Shown: positions 7,779-27,822 of the stretch, in pieces
Position numbering within the stretch: position 1 is the first letter of the stretch
Layout: each line of letters opens with the position of its first letter
DNA from: a bacterium
GTDB taxonomy: Bacteria; Armatimonadota; Zipacnadia; Zipacnadales; UBA11051
DNA: 40,701 nt
NCBI GenBank assembly: GCA_021372615.1
Contig: JAJFUB010000023.1
Span: 1 to 40,701, forward strand
Direction of reading: 5' to 3'
Position numbers and translations under genes: made by a program
The notes under the pieces: generated by a model
What the model saw: only the letters and a program-made list of their open reading frames with translations
What the model was told of the DNA's origin: nothing
Databases searched by the model: none

Positions 7779-9053
7779 CTACGCCTGCGCCAACTCCACG
7801 ACGCGGGTGGCGTTCTCGCTGATCTTGCGGAAGCCGTCCACGTACTGCTGCATCAGTGCCATGGTGTTGGGCGGGTAGACGCCGCCGAGATAGGCGTGCG
7901 CGTCAATGAAGTCCACCGTGCGTGGGTAGTCTTCGTCGTACTGGATGTTCCCGCGGCCGTACTGGCAGGTCCACGGACAGCCCTTGCCGTAGCCGATGCG
8001 GTCGTGGAAGACGTCCTGGGCCGGCACCGGGCGCGTCTGCCACTGCCCCAGGCCCACACCCTCGGCCGCCAGGGCCTTCTGCGAGGCGCGCTTCCACTGC
8101 GCCGGCGTCAGGTCCAGCCCCAACTCCTCGGGCTTGAAGGTCACGACATAGCTGAAGTAGCACGGGTTGGCGTAGTCGGGCGTGTACGGACCCTCGAAGC
8201 CGGGGATGCCGGTCAGCTCGGTGGTCAGATAGTCGGCGAACTGGCGGCGCTGGGCGTTGTAGTCGTCCAGGCGGTCGAGCTGGCTGAGGATGAAGGCATT
8301 GATGAACTCGTGCGGGCGGTACATCCAGCCGAGGCCGTAGGCGTTGTACTCGCGGACCTGGCCGGCGACGACGACCTCACCGAATTCGCGCAGCATCGAG
8401 GCATGGGTGCGGTAGGCCTCGTTGTTCGTCGTCCACAGGCCGCCCTCGCCGCCCGACAGGTTCTTGCTGCGGTTGCACGAGAAGCAGCCGATGTCACCCA
8501 GCGCGCCGGTCTTGGCGCCCTTGTACTCGGCGCCGTGGGCCTGGCAGGCGTCCTCGATGACCACCAGGCCGTGCTTCTTGGCGACGGCGTTGATCGGGTC
8601 CATGTCGGCGACCATGCCGTGGATGTGCACCGGCAGGATGGCCCGGGTGTGGTCGTTGATGCGCTCCTCGATCAGCGCCGGGTCCATCGTGTAGGTCTTC
8701 GGGTCAATGTCCACAAAGGTGGGAATGGCGTTGTGGTGGAGCACGGCGGCGGCGGTGGACCAGTAGGTGAAGGCGCTGGTGATAACCTCATCGCCCGGTC
8801 CCAGGCCGGCGGCGGCCACGGCCATGTGCAGCGAGGCGGTGCCGCTGTTGGTGACGAGGGCGTACTTGGTGCCGCAGTACTGGGCCCATCGCTCTTGCAG
8901 TTCGAGAGCGCGGGGGGCGGAGTTGCCGTGGAGCTGGTTACTGTCAAAGACAGCCATGACCGCATCGCGGTCGGCTTGAGTCAGAGGCGGCCAGGTGCCT
9001 ACCGCTCCCTCGGGAACGACGCGCGGGCCACCTTCGAGCGCGAGCTTGGACAT
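7779..9053 (-). CDS. DegT/DnrJ/EryC1/StrS-family PLP aminotransferase (first copy)
   Basis: 424 aa, usual length for the family. It shows TNSGTASLHMAV (cofactor phosphate site, about 68-79), IEDACQAHGAEYKG (Asp168 for the pyridine ring) and CNRSKNLSGGEGG, where Lys197 is the predicted Schiff-base lysine. Family members transfer an amino group to keto sugars or keto-cyclitols in the cytoplasm, and some are dehydratases or regulators. The sequence style is close to the AHBA-synthase-like/StsC-like side of the family, but I cannot fix the substrate. AGGAGGA at 9062-9068 sets the ATG at 9053. The longer frame to 9314 would run through the terminator of the pseudopilin gene. The 5-prime leader holds a short GGGGCCC/GGGCCCC hairpin (9084-9101). 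It is flanked by hairpin terminators, so it may be a single-gene transcript. A paralogue of 390 aa lies at 19730-20902. Confidence 0.92.
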   Translation of the reverse strand: MSKLALEGGPRVVPEGAVGTWPPLTQADRDAVMAVFDSNQLHGNSAPRALELQERWAQYCGTKYALVTNSGTASLHMAVAAAGLGPGDEVITSAFTYWSTAAAVLHHNAIPTFVDIDPKTYTMDPALIEERINDHTRAILPVHIHGMVADMDPINAVAKKHGLVVIEDACQAHGAEYKGAKTGALGDIGCFSCNRSKNLSGGEGGLWTTNNEAYRTHASMLREFGEVVVAGQVREYNAYGLGWMYRPHEFINAFILSQLDRLDDYNAQRRQFADYLTTELTGIPGFEGPYTPDYANPCYFSYVVTFKPEELGLDLTPAQWKRASQKALAAEGVGLGQWQTRPVPAQDVFHDRIGYGKGCPWTCQYGRGNIQYDEDYPRTVDFIDAHAYLGGVYPPNTMALMQQYVDGFRKISENATRVVELAQA

Positions 9054-9174
9054 TGGGTTCTTCCTCCTGAATGCACATGGGGCGGGGCCCTGGCGGGCCC
9101 CACAGCCCTTGCTTGCCTGTTCGGCCGGGCCATGTTCCCCCGGGGCCCGAGAAGGACCTCCTGCCCCCGCAGAC

Positions 9175-9202
9175 AAAAGGGGCCCGTCTGGTGACGGGCC
9201 CC
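9175..9202 (-). terminator. Factor-independent terminator of the first pseudopilin gene
   Basis: A perfect 10-bp GC-rich stem (9179-9188 with 9193-9202), four-base loop, and TTTT directly after it on the minus strand (plus-strand AAAA at 9175-9178). It starts 29 bases past the pseudopilin stop at 9232. This is the best classical terminator in the window. Confidence 0.85.
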
Positions 9203-15614: not shown

Positions 15615-17708
15615 CTACTTCGGGTAGGTGACCCCCACCACCACATCCAGCAGCGTGACCGCCGGGTTGCGGACACGGACCATCTCCCACAGGCCCTCCC
15701 CGAGCGTGCCGCTGTTGGACGCGCCGAACATCATCCCGCTGCGCCCGCCCGCCGGCGCCGGGTTGGTGAACTTCCCCGTCCCGTCCAGGATCAGCCTGCC
15801 GTCCATATGAATGAGCAGATCCTGGCCCTTGGTCACGATCCGGTAGGTGTGGAAGTCGTCGTCGGTGCGGACGTTCGTGCTGACCCGCGCGTGACGCATG
15901 CAGACATGATCGGGGAAGAACTGCACCTGATCCCCGGTGATGCCGTTCTCGACCAGGATGCTGCTCTCGCTGGAAATCGTCTTGAGTCGGGCCTCGATGA
16001 CCGTCTCGCGCGCGGGGTCAATGAAGGCCGGATAGCGGAAGTAGTGGTAGCTGTCCCCAACCGTGCTGCGGTCGGCAATGAGCAACTTGCCGTCCTGCAG
16101 TTCGATGACGCACCCCTTCGCCCCGCCGATCCGCTGCCAGGCCGGCCCCGGCAACTTGTCGCTCTCCCAGGAGATCATCCACTGGTCATCGCCCGGTGGC
16201 ACCGTTTCGGGCGCGGTGAGGACAACCCGGTTCTGGCGGAACTTCAGCGCCTCCAGCGGCACGGGGTAATCATACCAGTCTTCCTTCACGGTCGGGTTGG
16301 CGAGGGTGTGATCGTTCAGGGCCACCTGCGGCGGCACGGGGCTGACGGCACGCACGTGGCAGATGACCGTCGGCTTGACGGCCTGCGTGAAATCCTCAGC
16401 TACGACCAGGTCGAAGGCCTGCGGACGGCCGGCTTCGAGCAGGTGACCGTTGACGGGCGTGAGCACCGGGACGGTGCGGTAGCGTGACCCGCCCTTGAGA
16501 TAGGACTCGGGCGGGCCGTTGCGGACCGTCAGGAAGTAGAGCTTGTCCCTGGTCTTGAGGGCCTGCGGGTCGCCTAGCTCGCGCCAGATGGGGCCGCGCG
16601 GGTTGAAGTAGTTGAAGATGTAGATGCCATCGGCGCCCGCGGCCCAGGCATTGGCGGCGCGGGCCCGGTAGCTCTCCAGGCTGCTGCGCCGGAAGCGCGT
16701 CTCGCCCAGGACGCGCGAGTCGCTGAGCGACGGGTAGACAGGCACATCGTACTTGTGCCCCAGATCGATGAGGGTCTCCCACGGGTTGAGCCGGAAGTAG
16801 CACGTGCCCGAGAGCACGTCCACCAGCCCCTCCTGCAGCCACCGCTCGATGTCCAGGCCGAGGGCGCGGCTGTACTCGACAGAGTCCGGCACGCGGATGG
16901 CGATGAGGATCGGGCGGCCGCGGCGCATCCCCTCGCGCTCGGTCATGGCGCGAATGCGGCGCACGAGGTCAGTCATCATGTCGCGCTCTTCGTCCGAGGC
17001 CTCCCCGCCCCACGCGACGCTCTTGAAGAAGCAGGCGTGGCGGAAGAAGTCCATCTCCACCCCGTCCACGTCGAATCGCTGGCAGACCTCCTCGAAGAAC
17101 CGGTAGCACAGATCGCGCACTTCCGGCACCGCGTAGTTCACTGACGACCAGGTGCCATAGGGCGGCTGGTGGTCCGGCGCGCCGACGAGGTACTCCGGGT
17201 GGTCCTTCTTGAGTTGCGGCAGCATGATGGGGCCGTAGCCCGTCAGCCCCGCGTCATGCGTGTCATTCATGCGCATGTCCCAGAAGATCTCGATCCCGTG
17301 GGCATGGCAGAAGTCGGCCATGACCTTGATCGGGTCCAGGCCCACCCGCAAGTAATCGGGCATGCCGTTGTCCTTGCACAAGTCCTCGCGCGAGACGAAG
17401 GGCGGGAACACAGCGCTGTGGTGCAGCGCCCAGCCGAAGCACATCGAGTTGCTGTAGAAGATGCTGTCCACCTGACTGCCGAGCAGGGGGGTGGTGCGCA
17501 GGGCCAGGAGCGCCTCGGGGGTCGGCTCCTTCCTGGTGTAGATGACATCATCGCCGTCGTTGTTGAAGATCATGCGGCGGGGGCGATGGGCCGCCTCGCG
17601 GCGCATGGCGCGCAGCCTGGCGAGGTCAATCGGGGCGTTCTGGGCCAGAGCCTGGCTGAGCAGCATGAGCACCCCTCCCGACAGCAGCACTGCAGTCATG
17701 GTCCGCAT
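15615..17708 (-). CDS. Secreted GHL10/family-10-like glycoside hydrolase with C-terminal LamG-like domain
   Basis: 697 aa. Signal peptide 1-23. Residues about 40-400 form a TIM-barrel-like domain of the GHL10 type (putative glycosyl hydrolase, DUF187-like): MIFNNDGDDVIY near 45, EIFWDMRMNDTHDAG near 140 and DVDGVEMDFFRH near 213, whose Glu and Asp are candidate catalytic residues. Residues about 400-520 form a beta-rich domain. About 527-697 is a LamG/3-keto-disaccharide-hydrolase-like sandwich (IHMDGRLILDGTGKFTNP). The substrate is unknown. GGAGG lies eight bases before the ATG at 17708. A GTG two codons upstream is too close to the ribosome site. Its start lies 18 bases after the dhaL stop, so cotranscription with dhaK-dhaL is likely. 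An extracellular hydrolase tied to a ketose kinase suggests that it releases, directly or indirectly, the sugar later phosphorylated. Confidence 0.85.
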   Translation of the reverse strand: MRTMTAVLLSGGVLMLLSQALAQNAPIDLARLRAMRREAAHRPRRMIFNNDGDDVIYTRKEPTPEALLALRTTPLLGSQVDSIFYSNSMCFGWALHHSAVFPPFVSREDLCKDNGMPDYLRVGLDPIKVMADFCHAHGIEIFWDMRMNDTHDAGLTGYGPIMLPQLKKDHPEYLVGAPDHQPPYGTWSSVNYAVPEVRDLCYRFFEEVCQRFDVDGVEMDFFRHACFFKSVAWGGEASDEERDMMTDLVRRIRAMTEREGMRRGRPILIAIRVPDSVEYSRALGLDIERWLQEGLVDVLSGTCYFRLNPWETLIDLGHKYDVPVYPSLSDSRVLGETRFRRSSLESYRARAANAWAAGADGIYIFNYFNPRGPIWRELGDPQALKTRDKLYFLTVRNGPPESYLKGGSRYRTVPVLTPVNGHLLEAGRPQAFDLVVAEDFTQAVKPTVICHVRAVSPVPPQVALNDHTLANPTVKEDWYDYPVPLEALKFRQNRVVLTAPETVPPGDDQWMISWESDKLPGPAWQRIGGAKGCVIELQDGKLLIADRSTVGDSYHYFRYPAFIDPARETVIEARLKTISSESSILVENGITGDQVQFFPDHVCMRHARVSTNVRTDDDFHTYRIVTKGQDLLIHMDGRLILDGTGKFTNPAPAGGRSGMMFGASNSGTLGEGLWEMVRVRNPAVTLLDVVVGVTYPK

Positions 17709-17726
17709 GGCCACTCCCTCCGGGGG

Positions 17727-18368
17727 TCACTCGTTGACGTAGTCGGCCACCGCGCGCACGACCACGGCCACGACCGTCGCCCCGGCGTCCTGGACACCGA
17801 TGCTGCGCTCCTGGAACCAGGCCGACCGGCCGAACTTCCCCTGCAGAGGAGTGGTGCTCTCCGCGCCGGCCTGCGCGGCCTCCGCCGCCGCGGCGCAGGC
17901 GTCCGCGAGTGAAGCCCCGCCGGCTTCCGCCTCTTTCAGCGCCCCCACCGCCGGGATGAGCGCATCCACCAGTGTCTTGTCTCCCTGTTGCGCCCCGCCG
18001 CGCTGCTGCAGTCCGGCGATGGCCGCTTCCCCGGCCGCGACGATCGCGGCCAGATCCCACTCCGCCAGCCCGCCGTCCTTGGCGACCTTCGCCGCGCGCA
18101 TAACTGCGGTGGCGACCAGGGCCCCGAACGTGGAGGCTCCCGCCGAGTTGAAGGCCATACCGGCCTTCAGGAGGGCGTCGGCGAGGCTCCCGGCGGCCTC
18201 GCCCGGGGACTCGATGACCGCCTGCAGGCCCAGGCGGCAGGTGACGCCGAGGTCGCCGTCGCCGGTGGCGGCGTCGAGGGCGGTGATCTCGTCATGCGCC
18301 GCCGCCAGACCGGCCGCGAGCTTGGTGGCCAGGGGCTGGAAGTCGGCGAGGGTCAGTGATTGCTTCAC
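17727..18368 (-). CDS. dhaL: Dihydroxyacetone kinase subunit DhaL
   Basis: 213 aa, normal for the ADP/ATP-binding subunit. LDAATGDGDLGVT at 31-43 supplies the three Asp residues (32, 37, 39) that hold the two magnesium ions. SAGASTFGAL near 75-84 is the nucleotide-loop region, and GRSAWFQERSIGVQDAGA at 180-197 matches the canonical GRASYLGERS-type end. The usual His after the third Asp is replaced by Leu. DhaL passes a phosphate to the ketose bound by DhaK. The start is GTG at 18368, six bases after AAGGAGA. dhaK lies upstream, separated by a 150-base inverted repeat. No DhaM phosphocarrier, EI or HPr gene is in the window, so whether it is PTS-driven or directly ATP-driven is open. Confidence 0.93.
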   Translation of the reverse strand: MKQSLTLADFQPLATKLAAGLAAAHDEITALDAATGDGDLGVTCRLGLQAVIESPGEAAGSLADALLKAGMAFNSAGASTFGALVATAVMRAAKVAKDGGLAEWDLAAIVAAGEAAIAGLQQRGGAQQGDKTLVDALIPAVGALKEAEAGGASLADACAAAAEAAQAGAESTTPLQGKFGRSAWFQERSIGVQDAGATVVAVVVRAVADYVNE

Positions 18369-18396
18369 GGGTGTCTCCTTCTGGACGGCAACGGCT

Positions 18397-18546
18397 CCTC
18401 ACCCCTGCCCCTCTCCCTCGCTCCGCTCCGGAGAGGGGAGGCGTCCGTTCTCCTTGTAGCTTCGAAGCCACAGAGTGGTCGCACGAGGTCCCCCTCTCCG
18501 GAGCGCTCAGCCTCACCGAGCGCGAGGGAGAGGGGTAGGGGTGAGG
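18397..18546. repeat. 150-base inverted repeat between dhaK and dhaL (family D)
   Basis: The outer arms pair over about 25 bases with one mismatch: CCTCACCCCTGCCCCTCTCC on the left, and GGAGAGGGGTAGGGGTGAGG on the right. Internal GGAGAGGGG and CCCCTCTCC segments add further pairing. It fills most of the 189-base gap between two kinase-subunit genes that are usually adjacent. A smaller relative lies at 37732-37785. No coding potential is evident. Confidence 0.78.
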
Positions 18547-18557
18547 ACGCCGTTTGT

Positions 18558-19559
18558 CTACCCCTGCAACAGGAACGGCGAATGCGCCGGGGCGTCCAGG
18601 CAGCGCTTGAGTTCCTCATCCAGCCTGCACAGCGTCACCGACGCTCCCGCCATCTCCATCGAGGTCGCGTACTCCCCGACGAAGGCCTTGTGGATCGTGA
18701 GGCCATGCCCGGTGATGACCTCGTGGGCGCGGCGGTAGAGCAGGTACAGCTCCTCGGGCGGCGTGGCGCCCAGGCTGTTGACGAGGACCGCGACCTCATC
18801 CCCGGACTGGAAGGGCAGGTCGGCCAGCACACGCTCGGTCATCACGGTCGCGACCTCGTCGGCCGTCTGCAGCTTGCCGCGCTGAATGCCCGGCTCGCCG
18901 TGGATGCCCATGCCCAGCTCCATCTCGTCCTCGCCGAGGGTGAACGTGGGCTTGCCGACGGCCGGGATGATGCACGGGGAGAGCGCGACACCCATGCTGC
19001 GGGTGCTGGCGACGACCTTCTCCGCGGTGGCGACGACCTCGTCGAGCGAGGCGCCTTCCTCGGCGCGCGCGCCGACGATCTTGTAGCCGAAGAACAGCCC
19101 GGCCACGGCACGGCGCTTGCCCTCGCTTTCGGGCGGGGCGGAGACGACGTCATCGCGCATGCGAACCGTCGCGACGCGGATGTCCTCCATCTCGCACATC
19201 TCGGCGGCCATGTCAAAGTTCATGATGTCACCGCCGTAGTTGCCGTACAGGTACAGCACCCCGGCGCCGCTGTGGATGGCCTTCGTGACGGCGACCATGG
19301 CGTCAATCGAGGGCGAGGAGAAGACATTGCCGATGGACACGCCGTCGCACAAGCCGGGCCCGACATAGCCCAGGAAGACGGGGATATGGCCCGAGCCCCC
19401 GCCGGTAGCGAGGGCGACCTTGCCCGCCACGGGGGCGTCAACGCGCATCAGCCCGCGCGGCGTGTCCGGCACGCGCTTGAGGTGCGTCGGGTGTGCCGCG
19501 AGGATACCCTCGATGGTCTCCTCGACAAAGGCTTCCGGGTCGTTGATGAGCTTCTTCAT
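18558..19559 (-). CDS. dhaK: Dihydroxyacetone kinase subunit DhaK
   Basis: 333 aa, usual length. [10 protein letters not shown] at 51-60 gives the substrate-site Gly and His58. [10 protein letters not shown] gives Asp111. [10 protein letters not shown] at 217-226 carries His220, the residue that forms a covalent hemiaminal with the ketone of the substrate. All key residues of DhaK are present, so catalysis on dihydroxyacetone or a related ketose is likely. It acts in the cytoplasm with DhaL. GGAGG sits six bases before the ATG at 19559, and the longer frame to 19706 is rejected. It is the first gene of the dhaK-dhaL-GHL10 minus-strand set and is divergent from the aminotransferase gene at 19730, with a shared 170-base control region. 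Confidence 0.94.
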
Positions 19560-19729: not shown

Positions 19730-20902
19730 ATGAGCACCGACATCCCCCGCAACTACCCCGCGCTGCCGCCGCTGGGCGGCTGGTTCACCGACGAGGAAGT
19801 CCAGGCCGTCATGGAGACGCTACGTGACTCCATGGACTGGCGCACGGGCTTCGGCGGGCCCGAGATCGGCCAGTTCGAGGAGGCCTTCGCGGCCTACTGC
19901 GGGGTCGAGCACGCCATCGCCGTCAACTCCTGCGGCACAGGGCTGGACCTCGCCATGATGTGCCTGGACCTGCAGCCCGGCGATGAGGTCATCAGCCCCG
20001 CCATCACCTTCAAGGCGACCCACCAGGCGATTATCGGCCAGGGGGGCACGGTCGTCATGTGCGAGATTGACCCCGCGACCTTCAACGTGGACGTGGCCGA
20101 TGTCGAGCGGCGCCTCACGCCGCGCACGCGGGCCATCCTCGCGGTCCACAACAACGGCCTGTCGGTGTTCATGGATGAGCTGGAGGCCGTCGCGGCGGCC
20201 CATCCGCACCCCACCTACGGCCCGGCGAAGGTCATCGGCGACGCCGCCCGGGCCTGCGGCGCAGGCTACAAGGGCACGAAAGTGGGGAAGATGGGCTGGA
20301 TGAACGTCTTCAGCTTCCAGACCAGCAAGAACATGACCACGCTCGGCGAGGGCGGGATGATCACCACCGATGACCCCGAGGTGGCCCGTCGCGCGCGGGC
20401 ACACCGCTCGTTCGGCGCCGGGGACATGTTCTGGGGCACGAACTACCGCATGATCCGGCTGCAGGGCGCCGTCGGGTTGGTGCAGTTGCGCCGCCTGGAC
20501 GAGATGAACGACCGGCGGCGCGACCGGGCGCACAACCTCAGCCGGCTGTTGCGCGGCCTCCCCGAGCTGACGCTGCCGACCGAGCCGCCGGACTGCCGGC
20601 ACATCTACTACGGCTACACGGTGATGGTGCCGGAGGACTGGGCGGGGGAGAAGCGGCAGAAGCTGATGGACTGGGTCGGCGCCCGCGGCGTCGGCACGGT
20701 CGTGATGAATGACTGCACCTGGACCTTCGACCCGTATATCGCCTCGCTGGGCTACGACGGGGCCGACACGCCCGTCAGCGTCCTCACCGGCAAGCGCCTG
20801 TTCTGCCTCAGCCTCCACCCGCTGATGACCGACGACGACCAGGAGTACATCGCCCGGACGATGGCCGAGGGGGTCGAGGCGGTGAAGTCCGGTGAAGCCT
20901 GA
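19730..20902 (+). CDS. DegT/DnrJ/EryC1/StrS-family PLP aminotransferase (second copy)
   Basis: 390 aa. VNSCGTGLDLAMM (about 65-77) is the phosphate-binding region, VIGDAARACGAGYKG supplies the ring-binding Asp171, and FQTSKNMTTLGEGG carries the predicted Schiff-base Lys200. It most likely transaminates a keto sugar or keto-cyclitol with glutamate or glutamine as donor. It is clearly diverged from the 424-aa paralogue at 7779-9053, so the substrates may differ. GGGGAGGG at 19716-19723 sets the ATG at 19730. Its stop overlaps the next gene by 11 bases, showing translational coupling with the NodB-like gene. The oxidoreductase two genes downstream could supply the keto substrate, a common pairing in amino-sugar and aminocyclitol pathways. 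Confidence 0.92.
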   Translation: MSTDIPRNYPALPPLGGWFTDEEVQAVMETLRDSMDWRTGFGGPEIGQFEEAFAAYCGVEHAIAVNSCGTGLDLAMMCLDLQPGDEVISPAITFKATHQAIIGQGGTVVMCEIDPATFNVDVADVERRLTPRTRAILAVHNNGLSVFMDELEAVAAAHPHPTYGPAKVIGDAARACGAGYKGTKVGKMGWMNVFSFQTSKNMTTLGEGGMITTDDPEVARRARAHRSFGAGDMFWGTNYRMIRLQGAVGLVQLRRLDEMNDRRRDRAHNLSRLLRGLPELTLPTEPPDCRHIYYGYTVMVPEDWAGEKRQKLMDWVGARGVGTVVMNDCTWTFDPYIASLGYDGADTPVSVLTGKRLFCLSLHPLMTDDDQEYIARTMAEGVEAVKSGEA

Positions 20903-22790
20903 CCCCATCGCGGCAGTAGTGCGGGCTTCCAGCCCGCCCGTGCTGCTCGTCACCGCCGCCGATGAGCAGCACCCGTTCGACGACTACCTGGCCGAGGTGT
21001 TGCTGACCGAGGGGTATGCGTGCTTCGCGTGGTGGGGTCTGTCCCCGGAGGGTTGGCGCCAGCCAACCCGCAGGGGACTGACCCCAGGAGGAGATGGCGA
21101 TGGGGTCAGCCCCCTGCAGACCGGCTCCGCCGGCCTTCCGGGGACAGACCCCGACTCGCGGACAGACCCCGCCCCTTCCCTCCTCATCCTCGGCGCTGGC
21201 GCCGCCGCTCAGACCCCCGTGGAGGAGGTTGAGGCGTACCTGCGCCGCGGCGGCAAGATGATCGTCATGCGGCCGCCCGACTCCTGGGCGCCGCTGCTGG
21301 GCCTGGCCGTGCCGGGCGAGCTGTACCGCACCGCGCCCGATGCGTACCTGCATGTCAACACGGACCACCCGTGGCTGCAGGGCTTCCCCGAAGGCGACCT
21401 GCAGTGTCCCGGCGAGAGCCGCGTGTTCCGCGCCGAGGGGGCCGAGCCGCTGGCCTTCATCGCCGGGCAGCTGGGCATGCCCTCGATCTTCCCCGCCGTG
21501 TCTCACCACCGCGTGGGCGAGGGCGAAGTCGTCACCTTCACCTACGACCTCCCCGAGACCCTCGTGCTCTTCCAGCAAGGCCGAGCGGAGAACTCCAGCA
21601 CCGGCCGCAACCCTGACGCCAACCGCGACGGGAAGTTCTGCGCCGATGACGCCATGACGGCGATGCGCGACTACCGGCTGCGGTTCGTCCCGCAGGCCGA
21701 CGTGCACCGCGACCTGCTGGTGCGCGTGATCCGGGGCCTGCTGGGAGACACGCTGCCCCTGCCACGCCTGTGGCACTTCCCCGACGCCGCGCCCGCCGTG
21801 CTGTTCGTGGATGGCGACGGCGACAGCATGATCTGGGACGACCTCGAAGTCACGGTCGCGATGGCCGCGGAACAGGGCTACCCGTACACGCTCTACATGA
21901 TGCGCGCGGAGATCGAGGCCTTCGACCGAGAGGCCGTGCTCGCGCTGCGCGACCGGGGCTTCGCGTTCGGCGTGCACCCCTGGTGCGGGCCGCGGCCGAC
22001 CATCGAACAGTGGGAGACGGAGATCGGCGAGATCGTCGCGGTGTTCACCGAGAAGTTCGGCTTCGCACCGACCAGCCTGCGCTCCCATTCGTGCATCTTC
22101 CCCGGCTGGGACGAGCATCCCGACATCATCCGTCGGCACGGCCTGCGGCTGGACACCAACCTCGCACCCGGCTATCGCTACCGGGACGGCTACCCCAATG
22201 GCAGCGGCCTGCCGCTGCGCTTCGTGGACCGGGCCGGGCAGATCGTGGACTGCTGGGAGCAGAGCACGATCCAGACCGAGGACGGGGCGCTGACGCCGAA
22301 GGTGCTGCTGCCGCCGCTGACACGCGAGGAGGCGCTGGTGCTCGCCCGGTCCATGCTGCAGCGCGCCGCGGCAACCTACCACAACGTCTTCCACCCTTAC
22401 TTCCACCCCATCAATCTCGGCGAGCGCGGGGCGCGAGTGGCCGCCTGGTTCCGCGGCGTGCTGCGCGAGGCGCGCGACCTGGGCCTGCCCGGCGTCAATG
22501 CCTCCGAGTGGCTGGCCTTCAACGACGCGCGGATGGGTGTGCGCTGCGAGGATGTTCGCTGGGACGCCGCGGGCCGCGAGTTGTCCTTCACCGTCAGCAG
22601 CCCGGCGCCCCTCGACGGCGCGACCATCCTGCTGCCGCCGTGCGGCGGCTTGATCCCGGTGCAGGCCATGGTCGGGGGCAACGAGGCGGAGCTGGAGCCC
22701 GTAGACCTGGAGCGATCCGACTGGACAGCGCTGGTGCTCGACCTGCCGCCACAGGGCCGCCTGTCGGTCAGCATCCGGTATGAAGCATAA
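20892..22790 (+). CDS. Polysaccharide-deacetylase-like (NodB-fold) protein carrying an in-frame repeat insertion
   Basis: 632 aa, no signal peptide. Residues 17-46 (VLLVTAADEQHPFDDYLAEV) begin a Rossmann or glutaminase-like domain that resumes near residue 95 (LLILGAG, then RRGGKMIVMRPP). The stretch between, residues 48-87, is encoded by the palindromic repeat at 21034-21152 and is rich in Gly, Pro and Thr. Residues about 300-560 resemble the NodB deacetylase barrel: LFVDGDGDSMIWDD near 303, FGVHPWCGPRP near 360 and SLRSHSCIFPGW near 397. The standard TFDDG and HxxxH motifs are altered, so activity is uncertain. A beta domain ends the protein. The start is GTG 20892, inside the preceding gene. 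An in-frame GTG at 20940 would exclude the family B repeat but has no ribosome site. Probably acts on an amino-sugar-type substrate with the flanking enzymes. Confidence 0.8.
   Translation: MKPDPIAAVVRASSPPVLLVTAADEQHPFDDYLAEVLLTEGYACFAWWGLSPEGWRQPTRRGLTPGGDGDGVSPLQTGSAGLPGTDPDSRTDPAPSLLILGAGAAAQTPVEEVEAYLRRGGKMIVMRPPDSWAPLLGLAVPGELYRTAPDAYLHVNTDHPWLQGFPEGDLQCPGESRVFRAEGAEPLAFIAGQLGMPSIFPAVSHHRVGEGEVVTFTYDLPETLVLFQQGRAENSSTGRNPDANRDGKFCADDAMTAMRDYRLRFVPQADVHRDLLVRVIRGLLGDTLPLPRLWHFPDAAPAVLFVDGDGDSMIWDDLEVTVAMAAEQGYPYTLYMMRAEIEAFDREAVLALRDRGFAFGVHPWCGPRPTIEQWETEIGEIVAVFTEKFGFAPTSLRSHSCIFPGWDEHPDIIRRHGLRLDTNLAPGYRYRDGYPNGSGLPLRFVDRAGQIVDCWEQSTIQTEDGALTPKVLLPPLTREEALVLARSMLQRAAATYHNVFHPYFHPINLGERGARVAAWFRGVLREARDLGLPGVNASEWLAFNDARMGVRCEDVRWDAAGRELSFTVSSPAPLDGATILLPPCGGLIPVQAMVGGNEAELEPVDLERSDWTALVLDLPPQGRLSVSIRYEA
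20913..20937 (-). repeat. Family B repeat inside the start of a coding gene
   Basis: GCAGTAGTGCGGGCTTCCAG followed by CCCGC is, in reverse, nearly the same as the intergenic repeat at 128-152. It is translated as part of residues 8-16 (VVRASSPP) of the NodB-like protein if the GTG at 20892 is the true start. Confidence 0.65.
21034..21152. repeat. Nested palindromic repeat within a gene (family C)
   Basis: About 119 bases of nested inverted repeats. The outer arms are GGGGTCTGTCCCCGG and CCGGGGACAGACCCC. Inner arms are CAGGGGACTGACCCC and GGGGTCAGCCCCCTG (one mismatch). Small side hairpins are GTTGGC/GCCAAC (21052-21067) and CCGGC/GCCGG. It is fully open in the reading frame of the NodB-like gene. 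A short copy of the same motif lies 3.6 adjacent genes-widths downstream in intergenic DNA at 22796-22824. Confidence 0.85.
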
Positions 22791-22795
22791 CCCAA

Positions 22796-22824
22796 GGGGT
22801 CTGTCCCCGCAGGGGGCTGACCCC
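22796..22824. repeat. Short intergenic copy of family C
   Basis: GGGGTCTGTCCCC, GCAGG, then GGGCTGACCCC combines the outer and inner arm motifs of the repeat at 21034-21152. It lies 5 bases after the NodB-like stop and 27 bases before the oxidoreductase ATG. Confidence 0.75.
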
Positions 22825-22851
22825 ATCTGCACACAGGGAGAGGATGACCAC

Positions 22852-23841
22852 ATGCCCCTGCGTTGGGCCATCATCGGTTGTGGCGACATCGCGCGCAAGC
22901 GCGTCGGGCCGGCCATGGTCGAGGACGAAGGTAGCGAGCCGGTGGCGATGTTCTCGAACTCGCTGGACCGCGCCCGGGAGATGTGCGACCTCTTCGGGGC
23001 GCGGCGGGCCACCGACCGCCTCGACGACATCTGGGCCGACGACGAGGTGGACGCCGTCTACATCGCCAGCCCGCACTTCCGCCACCGCGACGAGACCGTG
23101 GCAGCCGCGCGCGCCGGCAAGCATGTGCTCTGCGAGAAACCGATGGCCTGCGATGTGGCGGAGTGCCGCGAGATGATCGCCGCCTGCGCCGACCGCCGCG
23201 TGGCGCTGGGGATCGCGTACTACCGCCGCTGGTACCCCAAAGCGCGGAAGATGAAGGAGCTGATCGCCGCGGGCGTGATCGGCACGCCCATCCGCGCCCG
23301 TGTGTGCATCGGCGGGCTGTACAGCCCCACGCCGGAGGACTGGAAGCGCTGGCGGGTCAGCGCCCAGGCCCGGGGCGGAGCGCTGATGGATGTCGGGAGC
23401 CACCGCCTGGACCTCATCTGCTATCTGCTCGGCGAGCCGCAGCGCGTCTGCGGCCTGACCGACCACCGCGTGATGGACTACGCCGTGCCCGACACCGAGA
23501 GCCTGCTGTGCCGCATGGCCGACGGAACGCACGTGACGTGTAGCTGCTACTGGAACATGCCGCTGAGCGCCGATGAGATGGAGATTCACGGCACGGAGGG
23601 CTCGCTGCTCGCCACCCCCTTCGATGGCAACACGCTCGTGGTGCGCACGCGCGCGGGCGAGGAGACGCTGGACGTGTCGCGCCCGTTCGACAACGTCCAC
23701 CTCCCGCTGGTCGCCTCCTTCGCCGCGCGCGTCGGCACCGGGCAGCCGCCGGAGTTCGACGGCACGGACGGCATGCAGGCCACGCGGATTATTGACGGGT
23801 GCTACCGGAGCCACGCGTCCGGCCAGTGGGAGGCCGTCTAG
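22852..23841 (+). CDS. Gfo/Idh/MocA-family NAD(P)-dependent oxidoreductase
   Basis: 329 aa. AIIGCGDIA at 6-14 is the dinucleotide-binding loop. CEKPMA at 94-99 holds the conserved EKP lysine (Lys96). GGALMDVGSHRLDL at 176-189 supplies the Asp180/His184 pair expected for catalysis. Members oxidise or reduce a hydroxyl of sugars, inositols or their derivatives in the cytoplasm. AGAGG at about 22839-22843 sets the ATG at 22852. The open frame runs in phase back to 22780 through a repeat, but that extension does not align with the family. It lies between the NodB-like gene and the DUF1284-like gene in one plus-strand run. With the aminotransferase it could interconvert a hydroxyl, ketone and amine on the same sugar or cyclitol. 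Confidence 0.93.
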   Translation: MPLRWAIIGCGDIARKRVGPAMVEDEGSEPVAMFSNSLDRAREMCDLFGARRATDRLDDIWADDEVDAVYIASPHFRHRDETVAAARAGKHVLCEKPMACDVAECREMIAACADRRVALGIAYYRRWYPKARKMKELIAAGVIGTPIRARVCIGGLYSPTPEDWKRWRVSAQARGGALMDVGSHRLDLICYLLGEPQRVCGLTDHRVMDYAVPDTESLLCRMADGTHVTCSCYWNMPLSADEMEIHGTEGSLLATPFDGNTLVVRTRAGEETLDVSRPFDNVHLPLVASFAARVGTGQPPEFDGTDGMQATRIIDGCYRSHASGQWEAV

Positions 23842-23842
23842 C

Positions 23843-23902
23843 CAGTAGGGCAGGCGGCCCGCCTGCCCCGGAAGCGCGCGGACGAGGCCGCCCGCGCTAC
23901 TG
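23843..23902. repeat. Family A palindromic repeat, slightly diverged copy
   Basis: Starts CAGTAGGGCAGGCGG and ends CGCGCTACTG like the other full copies, with a few substitutions and a small deletion in the middle. Its end directly abuts the GAGGGAG ribosome site (23902-23908) of the next gene, so folding of this repeat in mRNA could affect translation. Confidence 0.8.
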
Positions 23903-23915
23903 AGGGAGTTCGCAC

Positions 23916-24881
23916 ATGGACTGCACCACCAACTGGGCCGCCACGCACGGGGAGCCCTGCATCGCCCTGCGGCCGCACCACCTGCTGTGCCTGCTGTGCC
24001 TGCGCGGCGGGGGCGAGCCGCCTGACCGAGGCGAATGGGGACTGGAGGAGGCCCTGCGCCGCATCGCGGCCGACCGCAACCTGCTCATCACGCTGGAGAC
24101 GGCAGTCAACTGCATGGGCGGGCCTACCAACCAGCCCGCGCGCTTCGACCCGGCGACCCGCCGCAAGGACCTTCAGGTGCTGCAGCAGCTCAACCTCGCC
24201 CCCGGCGACACGCGCCCGGCGCACTGGCTGCTGCGGGACGTTGTGCCCAAGCTCTGGCCGACGCTCGCGGGGGTGTGCGACCTGGGCGGCGAGACCGGCC
24301 CGGCCTGGCGCGAGTGCCCGGAGTGCCGCAGCGGCGCGTACGCGCGGGGCGTGGCCGAGGGCGTGATCCCGCTGCGGTCGGCCGAGGACATGGCCGACGA
24401 CAAGGAGCGCTCGTGCGCCGAGATCGTCTCGGCCGAGCGCCTGCGCATACGCCCGCATCACCTGCTGTGCATCATGTGCTTCTGGGGGACGGGCACGGAT
24501 GCCCCGGTCGCCGCGGACAACCTGTGGGAGCCGCTCATCCGCATGAGGGACAACCCGGAGATCGAGGTAGAGCTGGTCGAGGGGGCGTGCATGGTCTGCC
24601 CGCCGTGCCACGGCTGGGATCCCCGGCGCAACATCTGCGACGCGGCCTGCGGGCTGCGCGACCGGCTCAAGGACCTCAACACGCTGCAGCGGCTCGGCCT
24701 CGCGCCCGGCGATGTGCGCACCGCCCGCGAGCTATACGACCTGATCTGGGAGCGCATCACCGACATCGGGGAGATCTGCGGCCGCATGAACGAGACGCCG
24801 CTGGAGTGGCACGACTGCAGCGGCGCCCGCGGCGACCGGCACGGCAAGGCCCGGGAGCGCGGGCAGTTCATCCAGCCGTAG
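23916..24881 (+). CDS. Protein with two DUF1284-like halves, Cys-rich
   Basis: 321 aa, cytoplasmic. ALRPHHLLCLLC at 17-28 and RIRPHHLLCIMC at about 177-188 mark two copies of a domain that recalls the small DUF1284 family, usually a single domain of under 200 aa. Each half also has a NCMGG- or CMVCPPC-type cysteine motif and ends with a helical LAPGD segment (LNLAPGDTRPA, LGLAPGDVRTA), confirming internal duplication. Paired His and clustered Cys suggest metal or iron-sulfur binding, but no activity is established that I know of. GAGGGAG at 23902-23908 sets the ATG. It ends the plus-strand aminotransferase, NodB-like and oxidoreductase set. Only 10 bases separate its stop from the convergent LamG gene, with no visible terminator. 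Confidence 0.83.
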   Translation: MDCTTNWAATHGEPCIALRPHHLLCLLCLRGGGEPPDRGEWGLEEALRRIAADRNLLITLETAVNCMGGPTNQPARFDPATRRKDLQVLQQLNLAPGDTRPAHWLLRDVVPKLWPTLAGVCDLGGETGPAWRECPECRSGAYARGVAEGVIPLRSAEDMADDKERSCAEIVSAERLRIRPHHLLCIMCFWGTGTDAPVAADNLWEPLIRMRDNPEIEVELVEGACMVCPPCHGWDPRRNICDAACGLRDRLKDLNTLQRLGLAPGDVRTARELYDLIWERITDIGEICGRMNETPLEWHDCSGARGDRHGKARERGQFIQP

Positions 24882-24891
24882 GAGCGCGGCG

Positions 24892-27822
24892 TCAGTCCGC
24901 CAGACCCTCCACCGTCACGAGCACCCCGTTGTAGGCGGGCACGGTGAGACTGGCCGTCGCACCGTTTGCCGTCATCGCCTCGGCCTTCCAGGCGGGCTTG
25001 ATCGTGGCCCCGGCGCCCTTGACCGTGACCTGTACCGGCCGGTCCCGGTCGGTGAAGTTGGCCAGCACGACCAGCCGCCGGCCGGGCTTGGCCCAGGCGC
25101 TCACCCGCACCTCCGGGTCCGAGACCGTGAACTCCTGCTGCTGCCAGAAGGGCACGAACCGGACGCCCTGCATGCCGAAGGCGATCTGCACCGCCCACAC
25201 TTCCTCGACGACCTCCCGCCGGATGCTCCCGGCCCACAGCGGCACGCCGTAGCACATGGCCGCGGCGAGGCAGCACTCGCTGGGGCCGCGCTCCTTGGTG
25301 GCGTCCGTCAGGCGGTCCAGCTCCGGCAGCAGGTACGCCGACGCTCCGGTCGTGGGCGCATAGAACTCCGTGCGCCAGGTGCGGTCGGGGATGTCGGTCA
25401 TGTAGAAATGCGGCTTGCCGATGACCGCCGAGCTGTACTGCTCGCCCGGGCACCAGCCGTCGTTGAAGGCGTTGAACAGGCTGTACCAGTAGCTGTGCGC
25501 GTGGCTGAAGTACAGCCTGTGGTGATCGTGGCAGAGGGCGTACAGCCGCCGCGAGACGCCCCGGTGGGCATAGAGCGGGAAGGTGCGGCCACTGCGCCCG
25601 AAGGCGTCCGTGAAGCCGCAGCCGTGGCGCGGGTTGTCGCACGGCGTGGCGCCGTCAATGTCGGTGTAGATGCCGTCGCTCCAGTCGTTGTCCAGGTTCT
25701 GCTTCACACACCACAGCAGGAACTCGGGGAAGCTGCTGCTCGGGCAGACGGGGACGATGCTGTAGGGCGCGTTGTCCCCGACGCGCTTGTAGCCCGAGAA
25801 GCTCCCGCCGTACGGCAGGTTCCATTCCTCGCCCAAGAACAGGTACTCCGGCGAGATGTTGGCAGTGCACTGGACGCAGCTGTAGTCGAGGTTGTGCTTG
25901 CCCTGCGCCCGCCAGCCGTCCACGAGCTTGCGCTCGGCGGCCGGGTCGCGCGCGATCAGCGTGGCGTTGAGCGTCGAGATCTGCTGCCCCCAGCCGTAGA
26001 CGAAATGGGTGGAGCCCTTGAGCTGCGGGCCGCTGGCGAAGCGGATGTCGTGGCGATCCGGGTTCGGCGGGCGCACCGGGGTGGGCTCAAAGCCGAAGGT
26101 GTAGGTGAGGGGCTTGGTGATCTTCGTCGGTTCGCTGATGAGGTGGAGGCGAACGACGACTGCCCCGCCCTCGCGCCGGATCGTTACCGCCGGTTGGTCC
26201 TTGCCTTGCCGCCAGTTGGCGTCAGACTCCATGAACCACGACAGCCCGCGCTGCTCATTGCCGAGCCAGCCGTACGGGAGGAACTCCTTCTCGTCCAGCT
26301 TCTGCCCATCGAACTCCCGGCAGACGGGGTTGCGGTAGAACTTGGCGACCTCCGGCTTGAGGGGGATTTCGAGAGTGAGTGAGTCCATGTCCACGCCGCC
26401 GGCCGGGGGCGTGAGCGTTACCTCCGCTCGGATGAGCCCGTCGAACTCCATCAGCGACCGGAACGACGCGGCCAGGCGCCCGAGCTTCCCGGCGCCGACC
26501 GTAGCGACGCGGAAGGGCTCCTCCTCGACGACCGCCGGGTTGGCCCAGGTCGTCGCCGAAGTGTCCGCTTGCAGCCGGACTGGAGCCGCGAGGAGTTCCT
26601 GCCCCGCCACCTTGATCTGCGTGGGCAGTGCCCCCGGCAGCGCCGCCTCCCCGTTCCAGTACTTCACCGTGCTGCCCGTCAGCGACAGCGGCGTCCACGG
26701 CTCGAGCACGCGGTCGGCACGCCAGTCGCCGGCCTTCGGCAGCCACGGCGTCGGCGGCTTCGTCACCTTCGCCTCGCCCGCCAGCGCCTCGCCGCCGGCG
26801 GCCAGGCTGGCCCTGGCCGTGTAGTCACCGTCCGCCCATGCCTTCACCGGCACCGTCAGCGGCTGGTCCGGCAGGGGCCCCTCGAGCGTCTTGAGGACGG
26901 TGCCCTGTGGGTCGGTGACGGTCAGCTTCGCCTGTGCCTGCGGCAGGCGCTGCTGCCAGGCCGCATCCAGGTGCGCGGGCTTGAGCGTGACGGTCAGCTT
27001 GCTGCCGAAGTAGTCCGGCTTCATCGTGACCGCCAACCCCGGCTTCAGGTCCGCCAGACCCCCGGGCACGTCCATCGCGTACAGATCGAGCACCTCGTCG
27101 TCAGTCAGCGCCCGGTCGAAGACGCGGACCTCGTCGCAGATGGTGCGCTCGTCCGGGTCGGCCCACTGGCTGCCGCTCCAGAACTGCACGGGGCAGATGG
27201 TGAAGGTGCCCTCGGTCAGCTTCGGCAGCGTCCCCGACGTCAGGCCCTCGCCCACGCGCTTGCCGTTGGCATACAGCCGCAACTCCTTGGCGTCCCACGT
27301 GGAGACGAGGTGGGTCCACTCGCCCTGCTTGAGCATGTCCACTGGCGCCCCCGCGCGCGAGGTCGTGTCGGTCGGCGTCTTGGCGTTGACGCGGATGTAG
27401 TGAGAGACATTCTCGTCGCCGATGGGGTACAGGTACAGCAACATCGTGTAGGTGGTCGCCGCCATCCCGTCCCACGGCTTCCGGTCGGCGCTGACCACGA
27501 GGAAGTGGCGGAACTTGCCGCTGTGTCCGTCCCAGTTCAGCGGCTTGACCCACACCGAGTACGTGCCCTGGCTGGTGTCGAGATTGCCGGCGATCTGGTA
27601 GGTGCACCGCTCGCCCTTCTCCTGCAGCAAGCCCGCGCCCTTGACACCCTCCTGGGAGCGCAGCTCGAGGTTGGAGGTGAAGGTGGACTTGGGGTCGCCC
27701 TGGGCAGAGTCGGCGGTGGTGATGAGCTTGTCGAAGGAGACGTAGAAGGTCTGACCAGGCGGCAGCGCCAGGGCGGCGGTGCCGCAGGTCGCCAGTGCGA
27801 GTATCAGCGCGAATGAGCGCAT
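24892..27822 (-). CDS. Secreted LamG plus GH123-like (DUF6067-type) glycoside hydrolase
   Basis: 976 aa. Signal peptide 1-19. Residues 25-250 are a LamG domain (KPLNWDGHSGKF, then DEVRVFDRALTDDEVLDLY). About 260-400 is a beta-sandwich. About 400-880 resembles the DUF6067/GH123-like hydrolases: NPVCREFDG near 498, PYGWLGNEQRGLSWFMES, DYSCVQC near 645 and DGIYTDIDGATPCDNP near 720, with acidic residues suited to catalysis. A C-terminal beta domain follows. GH123 relatives cleave N-acetylgalactosaminides, but the true substrate here is unknown. GGAGG at 27829-27833 is six bases before the ATG at 27822. It is the last gene of the long minus-strand run that starts at 34633, and it may have its own promoter in the 79-base gap upstream. 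Confidence 0.85.
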   Translation of the reverse strand: MRSFALILALATCGTAALALPPGQTFYVSFDKLITTADSAQGDPKSTFTSNLELRSQEGVKGAGLLQEKGERCTYQIAGNLDTSQGTYSVWVKPLNWDGHSGKFRHFLVVSADRKPWDGMAATTYTMLLYLYPIGDENVSHYIRVNAKTPTDTTSRAGAPVDMLKQGEWTHLVSTWDAKELRLYANGKRVGEGLTSGTLPKLTEGTFTICPVQFWSGSQWADPDERTICDEVRVFDRALTDDEVLDLYAMDVPGGLADLKPGLAVTMKPDYFGSKLTVTLKPAHLDAAWQQRLPQAQAKLTVTDPQGTVLKTLEGPLPDQPLTVPVKAWADGDYTARASLAAGGEALAGEAKVTKPPTPWLPKAGDWRADRVLEPWTPLSLTGSTVKYWNGEAALPGALPTQIKVAGQELLAAPVRLQADTSATTWANPAVVEEEPFRVATVGAGKLGRLAASFRSLMEFDGLIRAEVTLTPPAGGVDMDSLTLEIPLKPEVAKFYRNPVCREFDGQKLDEKEFLPYGWLGNEQRGLSWFMESDANWRQGKDQPAVTIRREGGAVVVRLHLISEPTKITKPLTYTFGFEPTPVRPPNPDRHDIRFASGPQLKGSTHFVYGWGQQISTLNATLIARDPAAERKLVDGWRAQGKHNLDYSCVQCTANISPEYLFLGEEWNLPYGGSFSGYKRVGDNAPYSIVPVCPSSSFPEFLLWCVKQNLDNDWSDGIYTDIDGATPCDNPRHGCGFTDAFGRSGRTFPLYAHRGVSRRLYALCHDHHRLYFSHAHSYWYSLFNAFNDGWCPGEQYSSAVIGKPHFYMTDIPDRTWRTEFYAPTTGASAYLLPELDRLTDATKERGPSECCLAAAMCYGVPLWAGSIRREVVEEVWAVQIAFGMQGVRFVPFWQQQEFTVSDPEVRVSAWAKPGRRLVVLANFTDRDRPVQVTVKGAGATIKPAWKAEAMTANGATASLTVPAYNGVLVTVEGLAD

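Follow-up and report, generated by a model that had tools for sequence, protein, structure and literature searches.

Which reaction do the neighbouring DegT, NodB-like, Gfo/Idh/MocA and double DUF1284 genes at positions 19730-24881 serve, the making or breaking of an amino sugar or of an aminocyclitol, and do all four belong together? The window, by which we mean the whole stretch of 40,701 nucleotides that was analysed, corresponds to contig 23 in a draft genome of 6.4 Mb and has a GC content of about 65-71%. The four plus-strand open reading frames are present as the original prediction described them, and the features used below are:

19730..20902, plus strand: DegT/DnrJ/EryC1/StrS aminotransferase, 390 aa (Pfam, 305.6 bits; PLP lysine K200 and aspartate D171)
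20892..22790, plus strand: NodB-like protein, GATase-like domain, NodB barrel and beta-sandwich (predicted model; Foldseek match to Agd3, E 2.5e-9; motif check)
21034..21152, plus strand: four in-frame GGGGNCNGNCCCC palindromic repeats inside the NodB-like gene
22852..23841, plus strand: Gfo/Idh/MocA oxidoreductase, 329 aa (Pfam, 93.2 bits; nearest solved structures 2glx and 5a02)
23916..24881, plus strand: double DUF1284 protein, 321 aa (Pfam, 27.9 bits; 14-sequence alignment)
24892..27822, minus strand: secreted LamG and GH123_N-like protein (homologues beside the set in G019 and G014)
15615..17714, minus strand: secreted GHL10-like protein (Pfam, 23.2 bits, below the cut-off of 27.9; homologues in G019 and G021)
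18558-19556, minus strand: DhaK, upstream of DegT and in the opposite direction
17727-18368, minus strand: DhaL, likewise upstream of DegT and in the opposite direction

The predicted overlap of the DegT and NodB-like genes amounts to 11 nt if the latter starts at GTG 20892 (632 aa), but turns into a gap if GTG 20919 or GTG 20940 (616 aa) is the start. DhaK and DhaL were considered as partners and set aside, as no gene called in the regions fetched from relatives matched either of them. The window encodes a second DegT aminotransferase at 7779-9200 on the minus strand (276.7 bits).

The window DegT protein belongs to PF01041 (305.6 bits against a cut-off of 19.8), and K200 and D171, which we take to be the PLP Schiff-base lysine and the aspartate at the PLP nitrogen, are unchanged in 9/9 aligned sequences, and in the alignment to perosamine synthase (3bn1) K200 falls on the lysine of that enzyme. 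Judged by its sequence, the protein is an intact aminotransferase; a PLP-lacking regulatory role, one of the two findings that had been named as refuting the original prediction, finds no support. None of the NCBIfam equivalog cut-offs for named DegT subfamilies (PseC, ArnB, WecE and others) is reached, the best being PseC with 205.7 bits against 423.5, and the ArnB model gives 194.2 bits against 631. Among solved relatives, perosamine synthase (228.6 bits), a scyllo-inositol-type transaminase (214.4), an ArnB-type enzyme (211.7) and QdtB (200.7) score so near one another that the substrate cannot be read from them.

The Gfo/Idh protein is a member of PF01408 (GFO_IDH_MocA; 93.2 bits, cut-off 24), and its nearest solved relatives by profile are 1,5-anhydro-D-fructose reductase (158 bits), aldose-aldose oxidoreductase (150 bits) and glucose-fructose oxidoreductase (129 bits), which differ from it in lacking the DegT and NodB-like context. 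The residues K96, D180 and H184, counted from Met 22852 and numbered K97, D181 and H185 in alignment A4, which uses a start one codon earlier, are unchanged in 7/7 sequences and are the EKP lysine, the aspartate and the histidine of the active site. S36 and R41 (alignment A4), which follow the second strand, are invariant, and anhydrofructose reductase likewise has a serine and an arginine at the aligned positions. As we take this serine and arginine to contact NADPH in that enzyme, the cofactor signature would be more NADP-like than NAD-like. The aminocyclitol half of the original prediction finds no support, as the inositol 2-dehydrogenase model IolG (TIGR04380) yields 120.7 bits where its cut-off is 355. 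An aminocyclitol or inositol substrate in particular was set aside, the matches of the inositol 2-dehydrogenase and scyllo-inosose type being no better than others.

The NodB-like label was more difficult to assess. The window protein has no Pfam or NCBIfam match at E 0.001, and none to PF01522, the CE4 family, up to E 1; two relatives score 16.4 and 13.7 bits with PF01522, below the cut-off of 23.1. The label is backed by a profile match (5o6y, E 0.0058) and by the predicted fold. The model (m1f28c8be4d84; 8 sequences, pLDDT 70.9, pTM 0.76) consists of a GATase/ThuA-like domain (4jqs on residues 1-275, Z 15.6, 191 aligned, rmsd 3.2), a NodB barrel (3qbu on residues 283-534, Z 15.1, 205 aligned, rmsd 3.2) and a beta domain (beta-sandwich), and this succession of a GATase-like domain, a CE barrel and a beta domain is the architecture of the CE18 and CE21 types. 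Foldseek places Agd3 first (E 2.5e-9), followed by NDST1 (heparan sulfate N-deacetylase-sulfotransferase 1; 8.1e-8), and ArnD (8t0j) is also among its matches, whereas ranking by Z puts a fucosidase on top, matched in its accessory part (6tvk, 18.2). With PelA, 409 residues can be aligned (Z 14.0), and with Agd3, 453 (Z 14.5 at an rmsd of 9.8), the high rmsd indicating that the domain angles of the model and of Agd3 differ.

A D-x-D motif (D293 and D295) is kept in 8/8 NodB-like sequences, and we take these residues to be the catalytic base and metal aspartates of CE4/CE18/CE21 deacetylases. H346, R381, H383 and H489 are likewise invariant in 8/8 sequences. The H-x3-H metal motif is absent from all eight, H346 having no histidine at +4 or -4. 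We conclude that the protein is predicted to be deacetylase-shaped, and that its metal site, if any, would differ. The deacetylase-like step of the original prediction accordingly keeps the Agd3/PelA-like predicted shape and the D-x-D on its side, but is uncertain because the usual H-x3-H is missing. The likeness extends to shared structural neighbours, as 3RHT, 4JQS and 3QBU are reported for Agd3 (excerpt of PMC7229062) and are also neighbours of the window model, and to the spacing of the D-x-D, which is that of D528/D530 in PelA (excerpt of PMC12022489). The window protein differs from Agd3 (CE18) and PelA (CE21) in the missing H-x3-H, in that no signal peptide is seen on it, and in an identity of 11%.

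The four palindromes in the NodB-like gene fall into a stretch of about 45 aa that is missing from its relatives (alignment A1), and two further ones lie just before the Gfo gene at 22796-22824, so that the window holds six copies where 0.44 would be expected. GGGGNCNGNCCCC is probably a dispersed repeat element, able to lodge within coding sequence. Two similar palindromes occur in L061, another contig. The DhaK-DhaL spacer (18369-18557) contains an inverted repeat; L154 and L156, two further contigs of this genome, carry pieces of it at identities of about 76-95%, which makes it a second dispersed repeat family.

Are the genes linked beyond this one genome? Conservation of the neighbourhood of the four families had been suggested as a check, and it was run on 46 genomes of the class, the window genome included, with each protein as query. 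With identity thresholds set by hand after the match lists had been seen (DegT 70%, Gfo 60%, NodB 43%), orthologues of DegT are found in 9/46 genomes and those of Gfo and NodB in 10/46 each. DegT and Gfo share seven genomes (p 7e-5), as do DegT and NodB (p 7e-5), and Gfo and NodB share eight (p 7e-6), all by a hypergeometric calculation that ignores shared ancestry. DegT and Gfo lie on the same contig, at most 2 kb apart, in five of the seven genomes that have both (G000, G019, G021, G022 and G028). In G013 they are on separate contigs, with Gfo well inside its own, and in G023, where contigs are about 3 kb, DegT is followed by just a 33-residue Gfo match. G030 and G014 have DegT, with a Gfo orthologue absent at the threshold. 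DegT and NodB are on one contig in 5/7 genomes (G000, G013, G019, G021 and G022); in G028 the contig breaks inside the gene preceding NodB, and in G030 the two genes are on separate short contigs. Conservation therefore holds for DegT, Gfo and the NodB-like gene, but not for DUF1284, so that the arrangement goes beyond chance for these three genes.

Trees were built without loci that repeat contigs of the genome set and without short fragments, and for Gfo also without matches of at most 30%. The cluster DegTs form a single clade (100/98), as do the cluster Gfos (99/98), and the window protein has the longest branch in each (0.25 for DegT, 0.43 for Gfo). For second-tier DegTs (45-62%), no conserved neighbourhood was seen except for one unassigned gene in three f6 genomes.

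In relatives the set is fuller, with the order DegT, Gfo, a transglutaminase-like gene (PF01841, 28.2 bits), one further NodB-like gene or in some cases two (the third scoring 34.2 bits with PF01522), and then the first NodB-like gene. Of 291 genomes of the phylum, 19 have the transglutaminase-like gene (E 1e-10) and 12 have the second NodB-like gene (E 1e-30), and the window genome has neither in this search; the orthologue thresholds for these two genes, also set by hand, were 50% and 60%, respectively. Due to the absence of these two genes and the longest DegT and Gfo branches, we regard the window as a reduced, perhaps faster-changing version of the set, and the module may be altered or decaying in this genome.

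Relatives of the NodB-like gene in named records are mostly from Armatimonadota, several of them from Candidatus Zipacnadia, a class described in PMC10290634 (excerpt). The window genome probably belongs to this class as well. Nine of the 19 NodB-like loci found repeat contigs already in the genome set. The ten others, among them L134, which is also from Armatimonadota, have a Gfo-type neighbour in three cases (L122, L130 and L139) and a DegT neighbour in one (L134); beside the NodB-like gene of six, neither Gfo nor DegT was seen in the part of the neighbours that was scanned. Linkage beyond Armatimonadota is weak. A Planctomycetota locus (L130:1101-7624) carries a run of NodB-like, amidohydrolase, unassigned, transglutaminase-like, Agd3-like and Gfo/Idh genes that has no DegT and is a cross-phylum relative of the set.

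Based on these observations, we propose with middling confidence that DegT, the NodB-like protein and Gfo/Idh form a conserved intracellular amino-sugar module, which more likely serves the use of glycans or amino sugars than surface synthesis. The Gfo/Idh protein would interconvert a sugar hydroxyl and a ketone, probably with NADP(H), and DegT would turn the same ketone into an amine or the reverse, its partner being glutamate/2-oxoglutarate. The Agd3/PelA-shaped protein would bind or N-deacylate the amino sugar, and the module as a whole would let the cell use an (N-acetyl)amino sugar or oligosaccharide that has been imported. The original idea that a dehydrogenase and an aminotransferase place an amine on a sugar or cyclitol has precedent, and the pair is conserved together with the NodB-like gene; the cyclitol and DUF1284 are the parts that drop out.

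Gene context makes catabolism the likelier direction, since the neighbours are secreted and glycosidase-like and activation and transfer enzymes are absent from the window. A homologue of the LamG/GH123_N-like protein occupies the same place in G019 (30% over 975 residues), a GH123_N-like homologue is next to DegT in G014 (22% over 577), and GHL10-like homologues adjoin the set in G019 and G021. The N-termini of the GHL10 and GH123-like proteins are clearly hydrophobic, those of the module proteins not strongly so. Several glycoside hydrolase families were found by Pfam among the 23 window genes and the 15 flanking genes of G019, G022 and G013. As originally noted, a nucleotidyltransferase or glycosyltransferase is found neither among the 23/23 called window genes nor among those 15 flanking genes. 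A nucleotide-sugar surface pathway, for which the window holds no supporting genes, was rejected.

A rather unlikely alternative is that the genes are a small biosynthetic cluster yielding an amino-sugar metabolite, in which Gfo/Idh would oxidise a sugar or a sugar phosphate, DegT would aminate it, the NodB-like proteins would take off an acyl group that serves as protection, and an amide would be made or broken by the transglutaminase-like protein found in relatives. Its logic is that of NtdC/NtdA (KabC/KabA, kanosamine) and RifL/RifK (aminoshikimate), in which an oxidoreductase produces a keto-sugar that is aminated by a PLP aminotransferase (excerpt of PMC8788734). The same pair types are present here, and NtdA is a PDB match of the window DegT. 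Further C-N enzymes accompany the set in relatives, namely the transglutaminase core, a CN_hydrolase, which lies near the G013 set together with a class II aldolase, and a class-III aminotransferase upstream in G022. Two observations argue against it: no phosphatase, carrier or transferase family was found by Pfam among the 23/23 window genes, and the neighbourhood is rich in glycoside hydrolase families. The window pair differs from the Ntd and Rif pairs in that the phosphatase NtdB/RifM and the kinase RifN are not seen beside it, in that its DegT is nearer to perosamine synthase than to NtdA (179.5 vs 109 bits in another PDB search), and in its additional partners, the NodB-like protein and, in relatives, the transglutaminase-like one.

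We also consider it unlikely that Gfo/Idh and DegT act in different pathways and are merely linked in a carbohydrate island or regulon. The genome does hold 25 DegT-like matching stretches (search with the window DegT) and 123 first-look Gfo candidates, and the set is split in G013 and is without a Gfo orthologue in G014 and G030, but the orthologues lie close together in five of seven genomes and each falls into a single clade.

The fourth gene had been predicted to encode a double DUF1284 protein, and 'double' is a fair description, since in its relatives the N-terminal half matches the region of the C-terminal half and vice versa (30-35%); PF06935 is matched by the C-terminal half alone (27.9 bits, cut-off 25). 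Ten cysteines are invariant across 14 aligned sequences. The model (pLDDT 84.1) has no Foldseek match in the PDB (best E 3.0) and no VIA row with a Z of at least 2 among 102 chains, which is not proof of a new fold, and no paper naming DUF1284 was found in the literature searched. That all four genes make up one pathway is very improbable: the DUF1284 gene starts 74 bp past Gfo on the same strand with a plausible ribosome site, and tandem copies adjoin Gfo and DegT genes in genus g3, but close orthologues (at least 60% identity, a threshold set by hand) are present in 5/46 genomes, were seen beside the module in the window genome only, and co-occur with p 0.3 for Gfo, 0.3 for NodB and 0.044 for DegT (hypergeometric, ignoring shared ancestry). 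As a pathway member it was rejected, its close orthologues elsewhere being alone or in tandem (in G015 the contig ends within the flanks of the gene); the DUF1284 gene is not linked to the set in relatives and is probably a passenger, a chance neighbour. In g3 (L142, L143, L144 and L146), the tandem double-DUF1284 genes have a different Gfo next to them (25-28%), joined in 3/4 loci by a different DegT (29-31%); as these genomes hold many of both, this proximity may be due to chance.

The Arn pathway for lipid A aminoarabinose likewise combines a DegT aminotransferase, ArnB, with a NodB-fold deformylase, ArnD. The window resembles it in the DegT and NodB-fold proteins, with ArnD a Foldseek match of the model, and differs from it in the low ArnB score (194.2 bits against 631) and in having no transferase partner.

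Returning to the amino-sugar module, we speculate that Armatimonadota might have a cytoplasmic catabolic route in which the amine-adding pair runs backwards and replaces the usual deaminating isomerases. A hexosamine released from glycans would be deacylated by the Agd3/PelA-shaped protein with its altered metal site, DegT would pass the amine to 2-oxoglutarate, and the anhydrofructose-reductase-like Gfo/Idh protein would reduce the keto-sugar with NADPH. We regard this specific scheme as decidedly doubtful.

Taken together, the set is a new variation on the known dehydrogenase and DegT logic; a prior description of DegT together with Gfo, a polysaccharide deacetylase and a transglutaminase was not found in the literature searched. 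With this, a conserved and defined enzyme set is described in an uncultured bacterial class, which, with its two well-formed enzymes, bears on whether DegT and Gfo/Idh proteins also take part in the breakdown of amino sugars. The NodB-like proteins, for their part, form a branch of the Agd3/PelA shape that appears to be intracellular and whose metal motif is changed.
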